64,000 bases of DNA, from assembly GCF_026210795.1 (NCBI RefSeq), contig NC_089449.1:3162001-3226000 (forward strand). Direction: 5' to 3'. Under the pieces are notes generated by a model, which worked only from the letters and a program-made list of their open reading frames with translations, was not told the origin of the DNA and did no database searches. A program made the position numbers and the translations under genes. Within the stretch, counting starts at the first letter, position 1, and each line of letters begins with the position of its first letter. Below, in pieces: positions 56,039 through 60,943 of the stretch. The stretch comes from Rhizophagus irregularis. Taxonomy: Eukaryota; Glomeromycota; Glomeromycetes; Glomerales; Glomeraceae.

Positions 56039-56602
56039 TCCTATTTTACTCAATACCTCGTACATACATGGCAAATAAATGATACTAATTAAATCAAAAC
56101 GTACGTACGTATGAAAGAAATAAGAGACCAAACGCACATAAATACAAATGATAAGGCGCAGCCGCAGTAACTGCCACTAGCCGCACCGGCAAAAATTTAG
56201 CCATCACGTGACATACCTCTAAATCACATCCCACCAGGTTTGCGCTGTTTATATTTATCTGAGGGACTTTGTTTTTTGAGTAGGTAAAATCCTTATTTAT
56301 CACCACTGTTTACTTTCACGCGTTCGTGCATAATGCCGTAACGCTGGCCCTGTGCTACAATTTTTGCCGGTTCAACTGGTGGTTCGTGTCTATACATAAC
56401 ATCTTTCCTATATAATCTCTTTATTGATATATTCAAGGTACTGACTTTATTAAATCTGGGATTGGCACAGTTATACCACTTTCGCAAACTTTTTCTTACG
56501 AAATAAATGTATTTAATTTACCTGATGTATCACAATGAATTTTTGGATCTTTCTCATCCACGTGATTTTGAATAGTTATGATAATTAAATTATATAATTA
56601 GC
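56039..56602. other. GC-moderate spacer, no gene called
   Basis: The GC content rises at 56150-56490. Two overlapping minus-strand ORFs (56094-56306 and 56293-56487) have no recognised family. GTACGTACGTA occurs at ~56100. Confidence 0.35.
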
Positions 56603-56619
56603 ACCAAATAACTTTCCTC
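56603..56619 (+). repeat. Left 17-bp target-site duplication
   Basis: ACCAAATAACTTTCCTC, identical to 59157-59173. Flanking bases differ on the outside, as expected for a target duplication made on insertion. Confidence 0.85.
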
Positions 56620-56782
56620 GGGTATGGCGAAAAAAAAACTCTCTCCCCTTTCCGATTTTTTTGTTAACAAACCGCAGTAATATAAACTTTTTCACAAACA
56701 CTTATATTTTTGTAAGGAGCGAGGACCACTTGGTGGCCTCTACGGAAAGGTCTCCTTTTATTACCCTTGACCTTTGAGAGAG

Positions 56783-58156
56783 ATGGATACAGAAGATATA
56801 TCTGTTCCCGTTCAGCTGGTTCATACCGACCAGACTACTTTACCTTTACCTCTCCTTTCTCCCTCAAAAACGTTTAATAATACGTCCACTTTTCATAAAA
56901 ATACTTTCCTTGTCTCTGTGAAAAAATTTCACGTGATGACAAAACGCCGAACCGGTTATAACAAGATTTATGAATTTAGGCGCTCAAAAAGTTTCTTTTT
57001 TGAGCTTGCTGATCCCTTTTCAAACACCAATGATCTTCATTTATTTTTACACACCAATGATTATCACATGGATTCTACGCCTATTCGATACACATCCACG
57101 AGCTATTTGCCTAACACAAAATATCAAATTAGTAAAATGCTCACACACTTTTTTACCTTACAAAAAGTTTTACCCCAACGTATTCAACAAAAGTATTTTG
57201 ATTTGATTCGCCAAAAATTACTGGATCGAATCGACTTTATCAAGTCACGTGCTTCTAATAGAACTTTGAAGAACACTCATACAAAAACTTTCTTCTCGTT
57301 TTCTTATAAGCGCTATCGCTTCCACTTTGGTATTTACGTTCCTTGTGAACATGTTTACACACCCGCTTTATCTAATTCTCTTACCCGGTGTCATAGCCCG
57401 AGCCCTTTCGTCATGTCTTTAAATAGACGTGCTTGTGGTACTCATCAACCTGAATTTTCGAGAACAAAAATTAATCACCATCTGAAACCTGTGCCTGAAT
57501 TGGACCCAGGATATACGAATTCAAAATCTTCACACGCTAACCATGTATACGATCTTTGGCAACATCGATGGAAAAATGAGATCTTTTCCAACCGCCTTGG
57601 CATTCAGTACAATGTATGCTATGTGGCTAACAGTACTAATTTCGTGCGCAAACATCCAGGCGCCTATATTTACAGGAAACACCTTTCGAATTTCAAACTC
57701 AACCATAGCAGTAATCCTGCAACGAAGCGCAAACAGGAAACCCGCTTCAAAAGACGTTGTGCAAGGGTGCTTAAAACTATTGACCCTACCTCCCGCACTT
57801 TGAAAGATGACAAACTCTCAGCTGGAAGACGTTTTCGCTTCCTATTCGATGAATCACAACATATCTACTCACCTCTTCACCATTTGAAATTCAAAAAATT
57901 TTCAACGGAGAAATTATTACCTGATCCTGATGATTATACATTTAAAATACCTCATCACACGCTGCCGAATTGCAGCACTACGTCACAACCTTCGACCTTA
58001 TCTAGGCCTTCTGGCGTTAATACTATCCCTCATTATTTGAATGCCGCAGAAATCGAGGCTCTCATGGATTCGTTAGAACCACTTCCTCGTAGCACTATAT
58101 ACTATGGTCATAATCCCGTAGACCCGTCTAAAGTGAACAGTAGTTATTATTTATAA
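56783..58156 (+). CDS. Unknown 457-aa ORF of the retroposon
   Basis: The start is ATG 56783; an in-frame TTG three codons earlier is not used. The protein is basic, rich in H, R, S and T, with aromatic blocks such as FFSFSYKRYRFHFGIYVPCE, SRTKINHHLKPVPELDPGY, VYDLWQHRWKNEIFSNRLG and RRFRFLFDESQHIYSPLHH. No catalytic motif, zinc finger or coiled coil is evident, and I do not recognise the family. It ends in SSYYL and TAA (58154-58156), after which the same frame continues without another stop to 58654. A nucleic-acid-binding, Gag/ORF1-like role is only an inference from the basic composition and the retroposon context. The frame is long and intact apart from that stop, so this copy is young or the protein is still selected. 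Confidence 0.6.
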   Translation: MDTEDISVPVQLVHTDQTTLPLPLLSPSKTFNNTSTFHKNTFLVSVKKFHVMTKRRTGYNKIYEFRRSKSFFFELADPFSNTNDLHLFLHTNDYHMDSTPIRYTSTSYLPNTKYQISKMLTHFFTLQKVLPQRIQQKYFDLIRQKLLDRIDFIKSRASNRTLKNTHTKTFFSFSYKRYRFHFGIYVPCEHVYTPALSNSLTRCHSPSPFVMSLNRRACGTHQPEFSRTKINHHLKPVPELDPGYTNSKSSHANHVYDLWQHRWKNEIFSNRLGIQYNVCYVANSTNFVRKHPGAYIYRKHLSNFKLNHSSNPATKRKQETRFKRRCARVLKTIDPTSRTLKDDKLSAGRRFRFLFDESQHIYSPLHHLKFKKFSTEKLLPDPDDYTFKIPHHTLPNCSTTSQPSTLSRPSGVNTIPHYLNAAEIEALMDSLEPLPRSTIYYGHNPVDPSKVNSSYYL

Positions 58157-58654
58157 TACAACCCCTTTGAACCTGACTTACCCCCGACTACCCACATACG
58201 TCAGTCTAACCCTTTAGATTACGACTCATCCACCGCTAACGGTATGGGCACCACACTTAAACATTATTATCGTCGAGGAATATCAACTCGACAACTGACG
58301 GTTCATACTAATGGATTTCACGAGCAGATGAAACAACCCCCACCTCCTCCAATGCCTTGCAAAAAGAAACAACATCGCAAGTGGAAGAAATGGGTGGAAA
58401 AATATCAAGAATACTACGACTATACGTGCATACCGTACGCTCCTCGGCCTTGTCACCCGGCTGACTACCATCTAGATCTCTTCGGTTTACCCTCATACAC
58501 CTCAGACGAAACTAAATCGGTGAAATACCGACCTAACAAGAGGGACACTTTGTCCTATCCTTCCGCTTCGTCACAATCACATGACCACAAACGATCAAGA
58601 CCAGCGAATAGTTTCCCTACTGACTCCCTATTTTCTAGTCTTAATTCTAATTAA
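58157..58654 (+). CDS. Downstream half of the split retroposon ORF
   Basis: The same frame as the upstream ORF, open for 165 codons after the TAA and ending at TAA 58652-58654. The first ATG is at 58244 (GMGTTLKHYYRRGISTR). Features: a proline run (QPPPPPMPCKKKQHRKW, basic, then WVEKYQEYY) and an S/T-rich C terminus. It could be translated by readthrough, by reinitiation at 58244, or it could be dead because of a single nonsense change. I do not recognise a domain. Confidence 0.5.
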   Translation, partial: YNPFEPDLPPTTHIRQSNPLDYDSSTANGMGTTLKHYYRRGISTRQLTVHTNGFHEQMKQPPPPPMPCKKKQHRKWKKWVEKYQEYYDYTCIPYAPRPCHPADYHLDLFGLPSYTSDETKSVKYRPNKRDTLSYPSASSQSHDHKRSRPANSFPTDSLFSSLNSN

Positions 58655-58884
58655 TTTAGTTTTTCTTATTCTATATATGTATATTGTTCATGTAATGAGT
58701 CTTAAACACTTTTTCTTATTTTGCATTCTACATTTTGGCGTCTATGAATTACCCTTACGTCATCATGCACGTTTGTATATGTATCAAACAATTTAAAATA
58801 GTGTGAACCATTCCACTTATGACAGTATTGACAAGTGGCAGCCTTAGGGCTGAAAGCAAAATACGGGTTTTATTAATTTTTCTT

Positions 58885-58945
58885 GTTTTTTTTCTTGGGA
58901 TTTTGGTAAAATTGTGTTTTTTTTCTTGGGATTTTGGTAAAATTG
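58885..58945 (+). repeat. Tandem 31-bp duplication in the retroposon 3' region
   Basis: Two adjacent copies of a T-run followed by CTTGGGATTTTGGTAAAATT, nearly identical, lie in the untranslated part between the ORF and the tail. Confidence 0.75.
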
Positions 58946-59156
58946 TTTTTTTTTCTCTTATATATATATTTTAAGGCGGGTGTTCCTGGGAAAGTTCGTG
59001 GTTCTGACTCGCGTTCACCTATTCCATAAAGAACAGAAAGCGTCACGCCTTGGGGTGGCTTGCTTCGTAGTGATAGTATTATATATAGACTTTTTAGGTT
59101 CTCTGTATAATTGAATCTACGGGTTTGATTTTCTGTTTTCTAAAAATAAAAAAATA

Positions 59157-59173
59157 ACCAAATAACTTTCCTC
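59157..59173 (+). repeat. Right 17-bp target-site duplication
   Basis: ACCAAATAACTTTCCTC directly after the A-rich tail; identical to 56603-56619. Confidence 0.85.
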
Positions 59174-59577: not shown

Positions 59578-60076
59578 CAGTGAAATTCGATAAACCGGAT
59601 CTATCGGTTCCACTAAAAATATCCGGTTTATCGGGATATCCGGTATAACGAAAAAATTTCAATCTATTATACTAAATTTTTTTAAAAAATTTCATGCTAA
59701 TAAACTAATATACACTATAATTTAATTTTTTCATCTTAATTTTAAGTCATAGAGGTCATGAAAATGAATATAAAATATTTTTAAATTGAATATATAAGTA
59801 ATACATAACTTCAGCCGGAATTAAGATTTTTATAATTCTGGCCAAAATTAAGATTTACCGCATCACGTTACTTAAATTTTATTGGTTAATGATCACGTGA
59901 TCAAGTTTATCGAATCATTTTTACTATAGCTGGTTAGAAAATTGATCTGTTATCGAGCTTTTACTAGTAAACTCCGGTATATCACAACTATTTTAATATA
60001 CGTGATTTGGTTCCAGAAAAAAAGTCTGGTTTAGGCCCAAATCCGGTTTATCGAAGATCCGGTTTGAATTTCACTG
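59578..60076. mobile_element. 499-bp TIR element (pogo-like MITE)
   Basis: The left end CAGTGAAATTCGATAAACCG and the reverse complement of the right end CAGTGAAATTCAAACCGGAT share the first 11 bp and AAACCGGATCT. Both sides are flanked by TATACA. Internal words (TGGCCAAAATTAAGATTTAC, CACGTGATCAAGTT) are shared with the exon-inserted MITE at 35024-35436, so the two are related despite different TIRs. No ORF. Confidence 0.75.
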
Positions 60077-60943
60077 TATACATAGTATTTATAGAGGTAC
60101 GAATTCTGAATTATAAGAATATCATCTAATTGGAAGTAACAAATACGAGGGATAATATTTGAATATGATACCTAATAGTCTGAAAAAATTTTATTTTTAC
60201 ACATCCTTTTCATTATTGAAATTGTCAAAAACACAATTCAATGTATCTTTGGTCAAATATTTAAGATTTGAAATATATGTAATCGGTTTTCGCCCATTAC
60301 GCTTGGTTGGGTCGACCGGAACTATTTTAATTTTGTCAAAAATTTTTTTGTTGTAGTCAAATATGTCCAATTAAAAAGTCAATGGACCAAATAATTTTCA
60401 CTACTAATAATTTATGTAATGTTAGATGTCAGTTCTTATATGCTTAAAAATAAGCTATACATTGAAAAATGTTTATTTTTAATAAAGCATAAGGTTAATT
60501 TTAAAGATCAACGTATATGTTAAAATCAATCCAATCAGATGTGAATAGAGTATCGCTTCACACTGGCACATACAATCAGACACAAATAAAGGAAAGCAGA
60601 TTAACCATATAAAACTAAATTTAAAATTAAGGTGTATATTAAAGGATAAACATTTTATTAATTAAATTCTTCACACACGTTCTATATTGTTCCTTCTCTG
60701 AATGCTCTTTATTACAGGTCTATATATACATAAACAATATGTTCTATATTTCCCATATATGCTACATGTTCTATATATTCTATCGAACATATTCGACATT
60801 TGTTACATTGATCGGCATCACGGGTCCCAGTTATATCACGTGATTGCTGCGTGACATTTTACTGCGTAACAGTAGGTATGATTAGCTTTTAATGTTAAAT
60901 AGAGAGTAACCGAAAAAAAAGATGGGGTAAAAGGATAGAGTTA

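Follow-up and report, generated by a model that had tools for sequence, protein, structure and literature searches.

An RT-less LINE family of Rhizophagus irregularis carries a selected reading frame and appears to insert at a near-fixed distance from an E-box

In a 64,000-nucleotide stretch of the Rhizophagus irregularis genome (the window) we find a 2.54-kb unit whose features support its identification as a non-autonomous LINE and a product of target-primed reverse transcription, and whose relatives, together with the autonomous LINEs that share their 3' tails, sit at insertion sites that look targeted, lying about 44 bp from an E-box. The best explanation, which we hold with good confidence, is a non-autonomous LINE whose copying would be supplied by autonomous drivers and whose E-box-spaced insertion would come about by tethering. 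We refer to the RT-less family as the cargo and to the autonomous LINEs as drivers; TSD denotes the target-site duplication. The features of the window element and its surroundings are as follows.

56559..56564, no strand: E-box CACGTG, the putative target motif, beginning 44 bp before the TSD
56603..56619, + strand: left copy of the 17-bp TSD
56630..56782, + strand: conserved 5' end (...ACTCTCTCCCCTTTCCG...) and 5' UTR, where similarity to other copies starts
56783..58153, + strand: cargo ORF of 457 codons, without known family, under purifying selection
58154..58651, + strand: TAA stop followed by another 165 codons open in that frame, equivalent to the C-terminal part of the sister copies' frame
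58787..58868, + strand: structured RNA module common to 15 aligned cargo rows
58884..58945, + strand: tandem pair of 31-bp units where the cargo body meets the shared tail
58943..59156, + strand: 3' tail in common with autonomous LINE A, with an A-rich tract at its end
59157..59173, + strand: right copy of the TSD
59735..60091, + strand: empty paralogue of the repeat that hosts copies L005 and L007

The left repeat, ACCAAATAACTTTCCTC (56603-56619), matches the right repeat (59157-59173) at 17/17 positions, and the unit that they bound (56620-59156) ends in CTAAAAATAAAAAAATA directly before the right-hand TSD copy, bearing out the identical repeats and A-rich end described in an earlier, sequence-only reading of this DNA. 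The same reading called the unit GC-richer, which holds against the whole window (38.5% versus 27.7%) and the right flank (26.3% over 400 bp); on the left, where the 400-bp flank reaches 34.3%, the contrast is weak.

The cargo ORF family occupies at least 93 places in the genome, 40 new ones of which had their 5' flanks taken. Three near copies of the window element, 96-97% identical to it, each have a different TSD of their own; similarity to them runs from 56630-56635 to 59157-59165, none of the three extends beyond 56603 or 59173, and the ten bases adjoining the left TSD (56620-56629) are absent from other copies. Because these copies share their ends and differ in their TSDs, the window unit is not a chance arrangement. 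Private TSDs range from 11 to 19 bp across 40 mapped insertions, 3' ends are A-rich or (TAAAA)n-like next to the right TSD in the copies read, and 5' ends are conserved in dozens of cargo copies; 5'-truncated copies were found among drivers (L014, L115, L116, L119, L122), none being established for the cargo. The many copies, private TSDs, A-rich end, shared LINE tail and missing RT thus support the first of two identities originally proposed for the unit, a large non-autonomous LINE parasite. The accompanying suggestion of recent activity survives for some sister copies, which, having tails 99-100% identical to a driver's, are the younger ones, and holds only in part for the window copy, whose nearest copies are 96-97% identical and whose frame contains a stop.

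Alignment of 3' ends joins the window element to autonomous LINE A, with which it has some 200 bp in common (98% identity over 204 bp; also 96% over 221 bp). Other cargo copies bear tails from four more LINE groups, of which two were assigned by proximity: the 55-group tail is found at 88-97% in five cargo copies and the 70-group tail at 94.6% over 186 bp in L047, while tails D and E are located 3.0-4.3 kb beyond the RTs of further groups, a comparison that covered 103 of 150 RT places. Driver ORF2 frames run to about 1930-2120 aa (1934-2119); that of L013 contains RVT_1 (1.9e-20) and RNase_H (6.9e-12) by Pfam, an Exo_endo_phos match of 20.5 bits, below the cut-off of 24.5, and large stretches without any Pfam match. 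On the strength of tail identity, we infer that drivers mobilise the cargo in trans. The cargo family suggests that a LINE lacking an RT may retain a gene under selection, of unknown function, through changes of driver.

The spacing to the E-box was read from 40 TSD-mapped insertions comprising cargo, drivers and 5'-truncated copies. A CANNTG starts 40-46 bp upstream of the TSD in 36/40, where about 1.5/40 would be expected for CANNTG at 40-48 bp from the rate further upstream, and the distance in those 36 is near constant, at 44.1 +/- 1.4 bp. The full CACGTG lies at 40-46 bp in 29/40 and at 41-45 bp in 23/40; removal of L005, which has the same flank as L007, and L006, with a low-complexity TSD, leaves 22/38 for the narrower CACGTG interval and 34/38 for CANNTG. 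The motif, of consensus RTCACGTGAY, stands on the 5' side of the element; on the 3' side, CACGTG occurs within 200 bp in 1/14. Apart from one alike pair, the flanks of the 40 insertions are otherwise unlike each other, and an E-box carried by the element itself was set aside as an explanation, since it lies outside the TSD in differing flanks. Targeting by the cargo protein was likewise set aside, since drivers, which do not have that protein, keep the same spacing. In a genome-wide scan from the 5' anchor, CACGTG was at the expected spacing at 9/28 sites, against 0 for the backward pattern and 1/28 for a shifted spacing. The window also holds an empty paralogue (59735..60091) that is 91% identical to the joined L007 flanks, with CACGTG at 59894, the insertion point at 59938, 44 bp on, and a 9-base gap after that point. 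The sequence-only reading had made no mention of a fixed-distance E-box.

Four of the 40 insertions depart from the pattern: L011 has no E-box at 40-48 bp, and L019, L066 and L069 have CACGTG at 34, 35 and 62 bp, which places three of the five full-length LINE A copies off the main distance. With TSD ends taken from exact matches, the TSD centre is the steadier reference (sd 0.94, versus 1.38 for the TSD start). Outside the 40 are L045, for which no TSD was found, and L095, L120, L121 and L123, whose 5' end or TSD was not fixed. L095 lacks a CANNTG between -120 and -40 relative to where its match starts; for L120, L121 and L123, in which driver-tail similarity begins inside the piece, neither a TSD nor a CANNTG at -120 to -40 was found. 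These three may be counterexamples, or else further tail-sharing elements whose 5' end lies farther off. L117 and L118 belong to the cargo but start outside the piece, and L086-L089 and L092-L094 are likewise without a resolved 5' end; L090 and L091 have one common flank and no TSD found; for L083-L085 a 5' end could not be defined; and L124 and L126 have CACGTG and no definable boundary. Of the more distant LINEs, four allowed a 5' end to be defined, and 0/4 had CANNTG at -120 to -40.

How might such a spacing arise? The RT of a driver would recognise the shared tail in trans and copy the cargo RNA by target-primed reverse transcription, within a complex that would be tethered by a DNA-bound protein and would nick some 38 bp past the E-box motif. 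RTCACGTGAY, with its symmetric flanks, resembles a classical bHLH dimer site, and the tether would most likely be a host bHLH protein of the Cbf1/USF type; an excerpt of PMC9895418 reports an R. irregularis bHLH activator that binds CACGTG/T. As a side effect of such insertion, the typical full-length copy comes to have an E-box some 50-100 bp ahead of its 5' end, a possible promoter element. The resulting proposal, that a LINE group and an RT-less family parasitising five of its lineages insert 44 bp from an occupied RTCACGTGAY, with a bHLH protein as the ruler, is one we advance tentatively, as slightly less than an even bet. If true, it would find open promoters for the element and place every new full-length copy downstream of an E-box. 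Were the tethering factor nutrient-responsive, as reported for RiPho4, retrotransposition would be steered towards a regulon relevant to symbiosis.

A DNA-binding domain encoded by the driver, in ORF1p or ORF2p, could instead read RTCACGTGAY itself with no host bHLH involved, a possible arrangement that we consider somewhat improbable. R2-type LINEs bind their target themselves, and the length of driver ORF2, the Pfam-free stretches of L013 and, by eye, a CCHC-like knuckle in driver ORF1 leave room for such a domain; yet neither a bHLH nor another sequence-specific DNA-binding family was detected in the ORF2 scanned, that of L013, or in the stretches scanned of L018 and L071 ORF1, and the likeness of the motif to a bHLH site speaks for a host factor.

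The host-tethering proposal concerns the drivers; the cargo adds a protein of its own. Its frame runs from the ATG at 56783 to 58153 (457 codons), meets a TAA at 58154-58156 and continues for 165 further open codons to 58651, so that the near-intact frame of about 620 codons and no RT first described was correct save for this one in-frame stop; L003 and L004 are open for 623 codons from the ATG. Across copies, the ORF is under purifying selection (dN/dS 0.22-0.54 in the 16 unsaturated pairs of 28). Its description as belonging to no known family also holds, with no Pfam match for the window ORF at E<=10 and no relative in a PDB search (best E 0.46). Pattern matches in IMG/VR (66) and GTDB genomes (360) yielded none confirmed, these being viral and prokaryote collections that are silent on other fungi, and an AlphaFold model of the window ORF alone (pLDDT 35.7, pTM 0.21) was of no use for assigning a role. 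As a guess, the protein may be an RNA-binding, ORF1-like helper acting in cis. The ORF's position, basic composition and a Cys/His-rich patch are, by eye, reminiscent of ORF1.

That resemblance is what would speak for the cargo ORF being the ORF1 of an autonomous LINE, with the window element a defective derivative, a reading we regard as very improbable. Comparison of the 93 ORF places with 90 of 150 RT places gave one ORF-RT pair within 15 kb, with the RT upstream; hhalign found no match between the cargo ORF and driver ORF1 (probability 0.1%), a weak test with profiles of three sequences each; and the frames of L016 and L017 remain open for 715-716 codons, in 6-7 kb pieces where no long RT frame is listed. 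The ORF list and Pfam show no RT in the window copy either.

Upstream of the tail lies a covarying RNA module of about 80 nt, with three hairpins, two of which show compensatory changes, and a possible pseudoknot. In the alignment of 15 cargo rows, from which other near copies were left out, 99% of cells are paired and 23 are double-change cells, versus 7.8 in shuffles; two of five covariation measures are not above shuffles. A test of three driver 3' ends did not find the module, which also has no match in Rfam release 15, where a search at E<=5 gave one sub-threshold match only (STnc250, E 0.98).

Insertion could also be random, with E-box-adjacent copies persisting as the E-box serves them as a promoter, and in 33/50 cargo copies CACGTG does lie 50-100 bp ahead of the 5' boundary (a count that scores L028, L030, L040 and L054, with probably misplaced boundaries, as misses, and in which L043 and L046 are too near the piece end for the bin). 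We reject such selection of expressed copies, to which we give hardly any credence, because 5'-truncated driver copies, to which a promoter should be useless, have the same spacing (43-46 bp in 5/5 with a resolved TSD), and the overall sd is 1.4 bp. The second identity originally proposed, a retrocopied host gene, here with a borrowed tail as a processed pseudogene family, would fit the lack of introns, the A-rich end and the single stop but is opposed by conserved 5' ends in dozens of copies, the conserved 3' RNA module, the selected ORF and LINE tails of several types, and, no intron-bearing parent having been noticed incidentally, without a dedicated search, it is scarcely credible.

Among known elements, the cargo is close in kind to HAL1 (half-L1) of mammals. 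Both lack an RT, retain a coding frame and depend for movement on an autonomous LINE, in the cargo's case one suggested by tail identity; they differ in that HAL1 keeps its own LINE's ORF1, whereas the cargo ORF has no match to driver ORF1 by the weak test above, and in that the cargo family bears the tails of several drivers. SINEs of the UnaSINE1 type have a 3' end in common with a partner LINE and so share tails as the cargo does, but the cargo is coding, about 2.5 kb long and equipped with its own structured RNA module; its 457-codon selected ORF, with only the sub-threshold STnc250 match (E 0.98) in Rfam at E<=5, excludes a SINE. The family adds a structured RNA without a match in Rfam release 15.

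I-group LINEs have the order APE-RT-RNase H, and driver A may have it too, its APE match being the one below the Pfam cut-off. The R. irregularis LINE/I and LINE/L1-R1 elements would share that domain order with driver A, and the excerpts of PMC11075540 that describe them name no target motif or non-autonomous partner for them; 'CACGTG', 'target site', 'insertion site' and 'motif' are absent from the main text of PMC8647823 and PMC11075540. Titles and abstract openings in the open-access literature yielded no description of an E-box-targeted LINE.

Targeting by LINEs is known for rDNA, telomeres, snRNA genes and tRNA genes. An ARAGORN scan (bacterial code) found tRNA genes in 0 of 16 insertion loci. 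According to passages of PMC5006619, TRE5 of Dictyostelium inserts some 50 bp away from where a transcription complex is bound, possibly through binding of ORF1p to TFIIIB subunits; it is alike in inserting at a near-fixed distance from a landmark, which for TRE5 is a tRNA gene and here a palindromic E-box. For R2, Utopia and other target-specific LINEs the targets are rRNA genes, snRNA genes or different repeats (abstract openings of PMC4640811 and PMC5035012), a similarly sequence-directed choice, whereas here the target would be a short dispersed motif in mostly dissimilar flanks. Beside these systems, an offset kept almost to the base pair from a short regulatory motif of Pol II type would be new as a way for a LINE to choose its target. 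It would supply proteins with short-motif targeting for research and, in a plant symbiont, connect transposition with gene regulation in a manner open to test.

Inspection of the sequence bore out the flanking repeats, A-rich tail and reading frame that the sequence-only reading had described for the unit at 56603-59173. Its GC content is 38.5%, against 34.3% and 26.3% in the adjoining 400 bp on the left and right, and its frame opens with an ATG at 56783, runs for 457 codons to a TAA and stays open for another 165, with no match in Pfam or PDB. A DNA search of the genome (146,748,485 bases in 32 contigs; all copy counts are lower bounds) recovered three near copies at 96-97% over almost the full length, six further copies at 83-85% whose match stops near base 2300, together with solo 3' ends matching at 89-98%; a protein search placed the ORF of this RT-less cargo family at 93 or more sites, with frames of up to 835 codons and distant relatives at 42-62% identity. 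The target-site duplications (TSDs) of the four closest copies differ (ACCAAATAACTTTCCTC, ATAGTTAAATTGATTTAAA, TTACTCAAAGTCTCAA and TTGAAAGACAATTTTCA). The unit is thus a member of a family, not a single retrocopy, a retrocopied host gene having been one of the two alternatives entertained at first. Of 28 pairs of cargo frames, taken as they stand, the 16 with unsaturated dS gave dN/dS of 0.22-0.54, and the upper value comes from the closest pair of loci, L002 and L003 (dS 0.011); among the remaining 12, seven lay at 0.16-0.21 with saturated dS above 2.5 and five were not computable. These values indicate that the cargo protein is maintained, and our guess is that it acts as an ORF1-like helper.

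Several of the solo 3' ends proved to be part of an autonomous LINE, LINE A, whose frame spans 1934-2029 aa. In one copy of it (L013) RT and RNase H domains were recognised, along with an endonuclease match below threshold. Over 204 bp the window copy's tail agrees with LINE A at 98% identity (96% over 221 bp in another comparison). Other cargo copies carry the tails of two related drivers, the 55-group (RT 55% identical to that of A; L005, L007, L010, L016 and L017) and the 70-group (RT 70% identical to that of A; L047); the L012 tail is 73% like the 55-group tail, and that of L011 is unassigned. For tails D and E a putative driver was assigned purely by proximity: three of the 40 D places follow RTs, at contig positions C14:811955, C16:4477171 and C9:758605, at a distance of 3.0-4.3 kb, and one of the 40 E places follows the RT at C5:3740941 at 3.0 kb. 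A same-strand cargo ORF lies within 3.5 kb at 4 of 11 tail places for A, 8 of 25 for the 55-group and 18 of 30 for the 70-group, these three lists being hand-picked from search results with most full drivers left out, and at 15 of 40 for D and 18 of 40 for E. Several cargo-borne 70-group tails are 99-100% identical to the driver tail, which marks those copies as young. The cargo ORF shows no match to driver ORF1, and a cargo ORF and an RT come within 15 kb of each other in only one pair of the 93 x 90 places, with the RT upstream.

Where cargo body meets shared tail, at 58884-58945, stand two identical tandem copies of a 31-bp unit, possibly a trace of template switching. At L088 (reverse complement of 933-1240) a tail-A 3' end is followed within 20 bp by another cargo 5' end, head to tail, and on the minus strand of L018 (2050-3039), directly upstream of the LINE A copy, a frame of 329 aa resembles, by eye, a Tc1/mariner-type transposase.

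Directly upstream of the tail, a module at 58787-58868 is conserved in all 15 aligned cargo rows, which cover all five tail types; it was not found in three driver 3' ends (L013, L096 and L100), which gave short T-rich matches only, and it has no Rfam match. The proposed structure comprises three hairpins, two with compensatory changes, and a possible 5-bp pseudoknot in which two single-side changes both leave a wobble pair. Paired cells (99% of 300, against 93.6% in shuffles), cells changed on both sides (23 against 7.8) and the covariation score (0.279 against 0.163) were each reached by 0 of 500 shuffles; two other measures did not rise above the shuffles, since doubly changed pairs numbered 5 against 3.9 (reached by 100 of 500) and additional pair types 13 against 15.3 (reached by 499 of 500). 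Slid along the alignment, the structure is 35-47% paired, a control that favours the proposed structure because this was partly derived from the same alignment. The module is most likely an RNA-level signal, for packaging, translation or nuclear entry.

Outside the window copy, an E-box (CANNTG) of the form CACGTG occupies 56559-56564, 44 bp upstream of the TSD, counted from motif start to TSD start. The TSD could be resolved at 40 insertions, made up of 22 cargo copies, 13 full-length drivers and 5 truncated drivers. In 23 of them CACGTG begins 41-45 bp upstream; all other 5-bp bins from 6 to about 200 bp hold 0 to 5, the maximum being the adjoining bin 46-50. The window density (17 per 64 kb) predicts 0.05 loci in the 41-45 bin (binomial P ~6e-56; without L005 and L006, 22 of 38, P 1e-53). 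CANNTG lies at 40-46 bp in 36 of the 40, at exactly 44 in 16 of those 36 (mean 44.1, sd 1.4), where the background rate of 0.0042 per position seen farther upstream predicts about 1.5 of 40 at 40-48. The exceptions are L011, with no E-box, and three LINE A copies, L019, L066 and L069, at 34, 35 and 62 bp; two of these fall about one helical turn short, as might be expected if a protein sat on a single face of the DNA. Alignment of 29 sequences on CACGTG yields the consensus (A/G)TCACGTGA(T/C), and the spacer between motif and TSD shows weak preferences only (at most 0.4 bits). The 64-kb window has 10 occurrences of TCACGTGA and 17 of CACGTG, where dinucleotide shuffles predict 0.41 and 3.09; the target motif may be abundant in this genome, in part via repeats carrying it.

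A site of the same kind without an insert lies in the window itself. L005 and L007 are inserted at the same point of the same repeat, an uninterrupted copy of which, at 59735-60091, matches the joined flanks of L007 at 91% identity and those of L005 at 90%; there CACGTG at 59894 precedes the insertion point, 59938, by 44 bp. A 9-base gap after the site means that the empty repeat is not the letter-perfect ancestor; L007 and the window repeat are a filled/empty pair, of paralogues rather than strains.

Several controls address the association of insertions with the E-box. All-against-all BLAST gave 5' boundaries for 52 cargo copies, a set that overlaps in several members with the 40 insertions. 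Of the 50 eligible copies, 34 have CACGTG in the 80-bp bin from -120 to -40, and the four bins next upstream contain it in 5/50, 4/50, 2/48 and 3/48; on the 3' side it occurs within 200 bp in 1 of 14 insertions (one flank being just 107 bp). CACGTG and CANNTG are both absent from -120 to -40 in L079-L082, four LINEs that are more distant and whose 5' end can be defined; two 50%-group LINEs have CACGTG at -81 and -69. The 5' anchor CTCTCCCCTTTCC has 28 sites genome-wide, some of which need not be element starts since the read-backwards control gives 8; CACGTG stands at the expected spacing from 9 of the 28 (11 pattern matches; 7 of the 9 already in the insertion set) and from none in the backward control. 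A shifted spacing of equal width gave 1; this is L005, in which a long T tract separates the TSD from the element and the E-box precedes the TSD by 44 bp. In truncated driver copies the distance is 43 (L014), 46 (L115), 46 (L116), 44 (L119) and 45 bp (L122, CATGTG); three further pieces, L120, L121 and L123, yielded neither TSD nor nearby E-box. On the resolved copies, the E-box marks the target and is not a surviving promoter.

Two CACGTG motifs also lie within the cargo body, at 56930-56935 and 57246-57251 in the window (+287 and +603 relative to the 5' anchor), and recur at +271 to +293 and at +568 to +609, each in 12 of 14 copies; in the A, 70-group and 55-group drivers that were read, one lies at a distance of about 390 bp from the 5' end. 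These internal motifs are possible regulatory sites. The hexamer lies 60 bp upstream of both L090 and L091, LINE A derivatives with an internal deletion (two short blocks left) and one common flank.

Target-primed reverse transcription involves a bottom-strand nick at the left TSD edge. An endonuclease tethered relative to the E-box would insert at a fixed distance, and with the nick at the TSD start the motif-to-TSD-start distance should therefore be constant. The sd of the E-box distance is 1.38 to the TSD start, 0.94 to its centre and 1.49 to its end, singling out no edge, and the distance correlates with TSD length at -0.73. A second DNA-bound component would be needed, because an endonuclease domain alone could hardly read a motif 38 bp away; the driver proteins scanned contain no bHLH match. 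The flanking T...A of the consensus fits Cbf1/USF-like proteins better than Pho4. RiPho4, a bHLH activator of R. irregularis, is reported to bind CACGTG/T of phosphate-transporter promoters in yeast one-hybrid (PMC9895418).

Judged by titles and abstract starts, the open-access literature yielded no E-box-targeted LINE. Unlike the targets of the Dictyostelium element TRE5, the 16 loci scanned here contained no tRNA gene; in working mode, TRE5 is the best parallel, lying ~50 bp from tRNA genes and perhaps targeted through contact of ORF1p with TFIIIB (PMC5006619).
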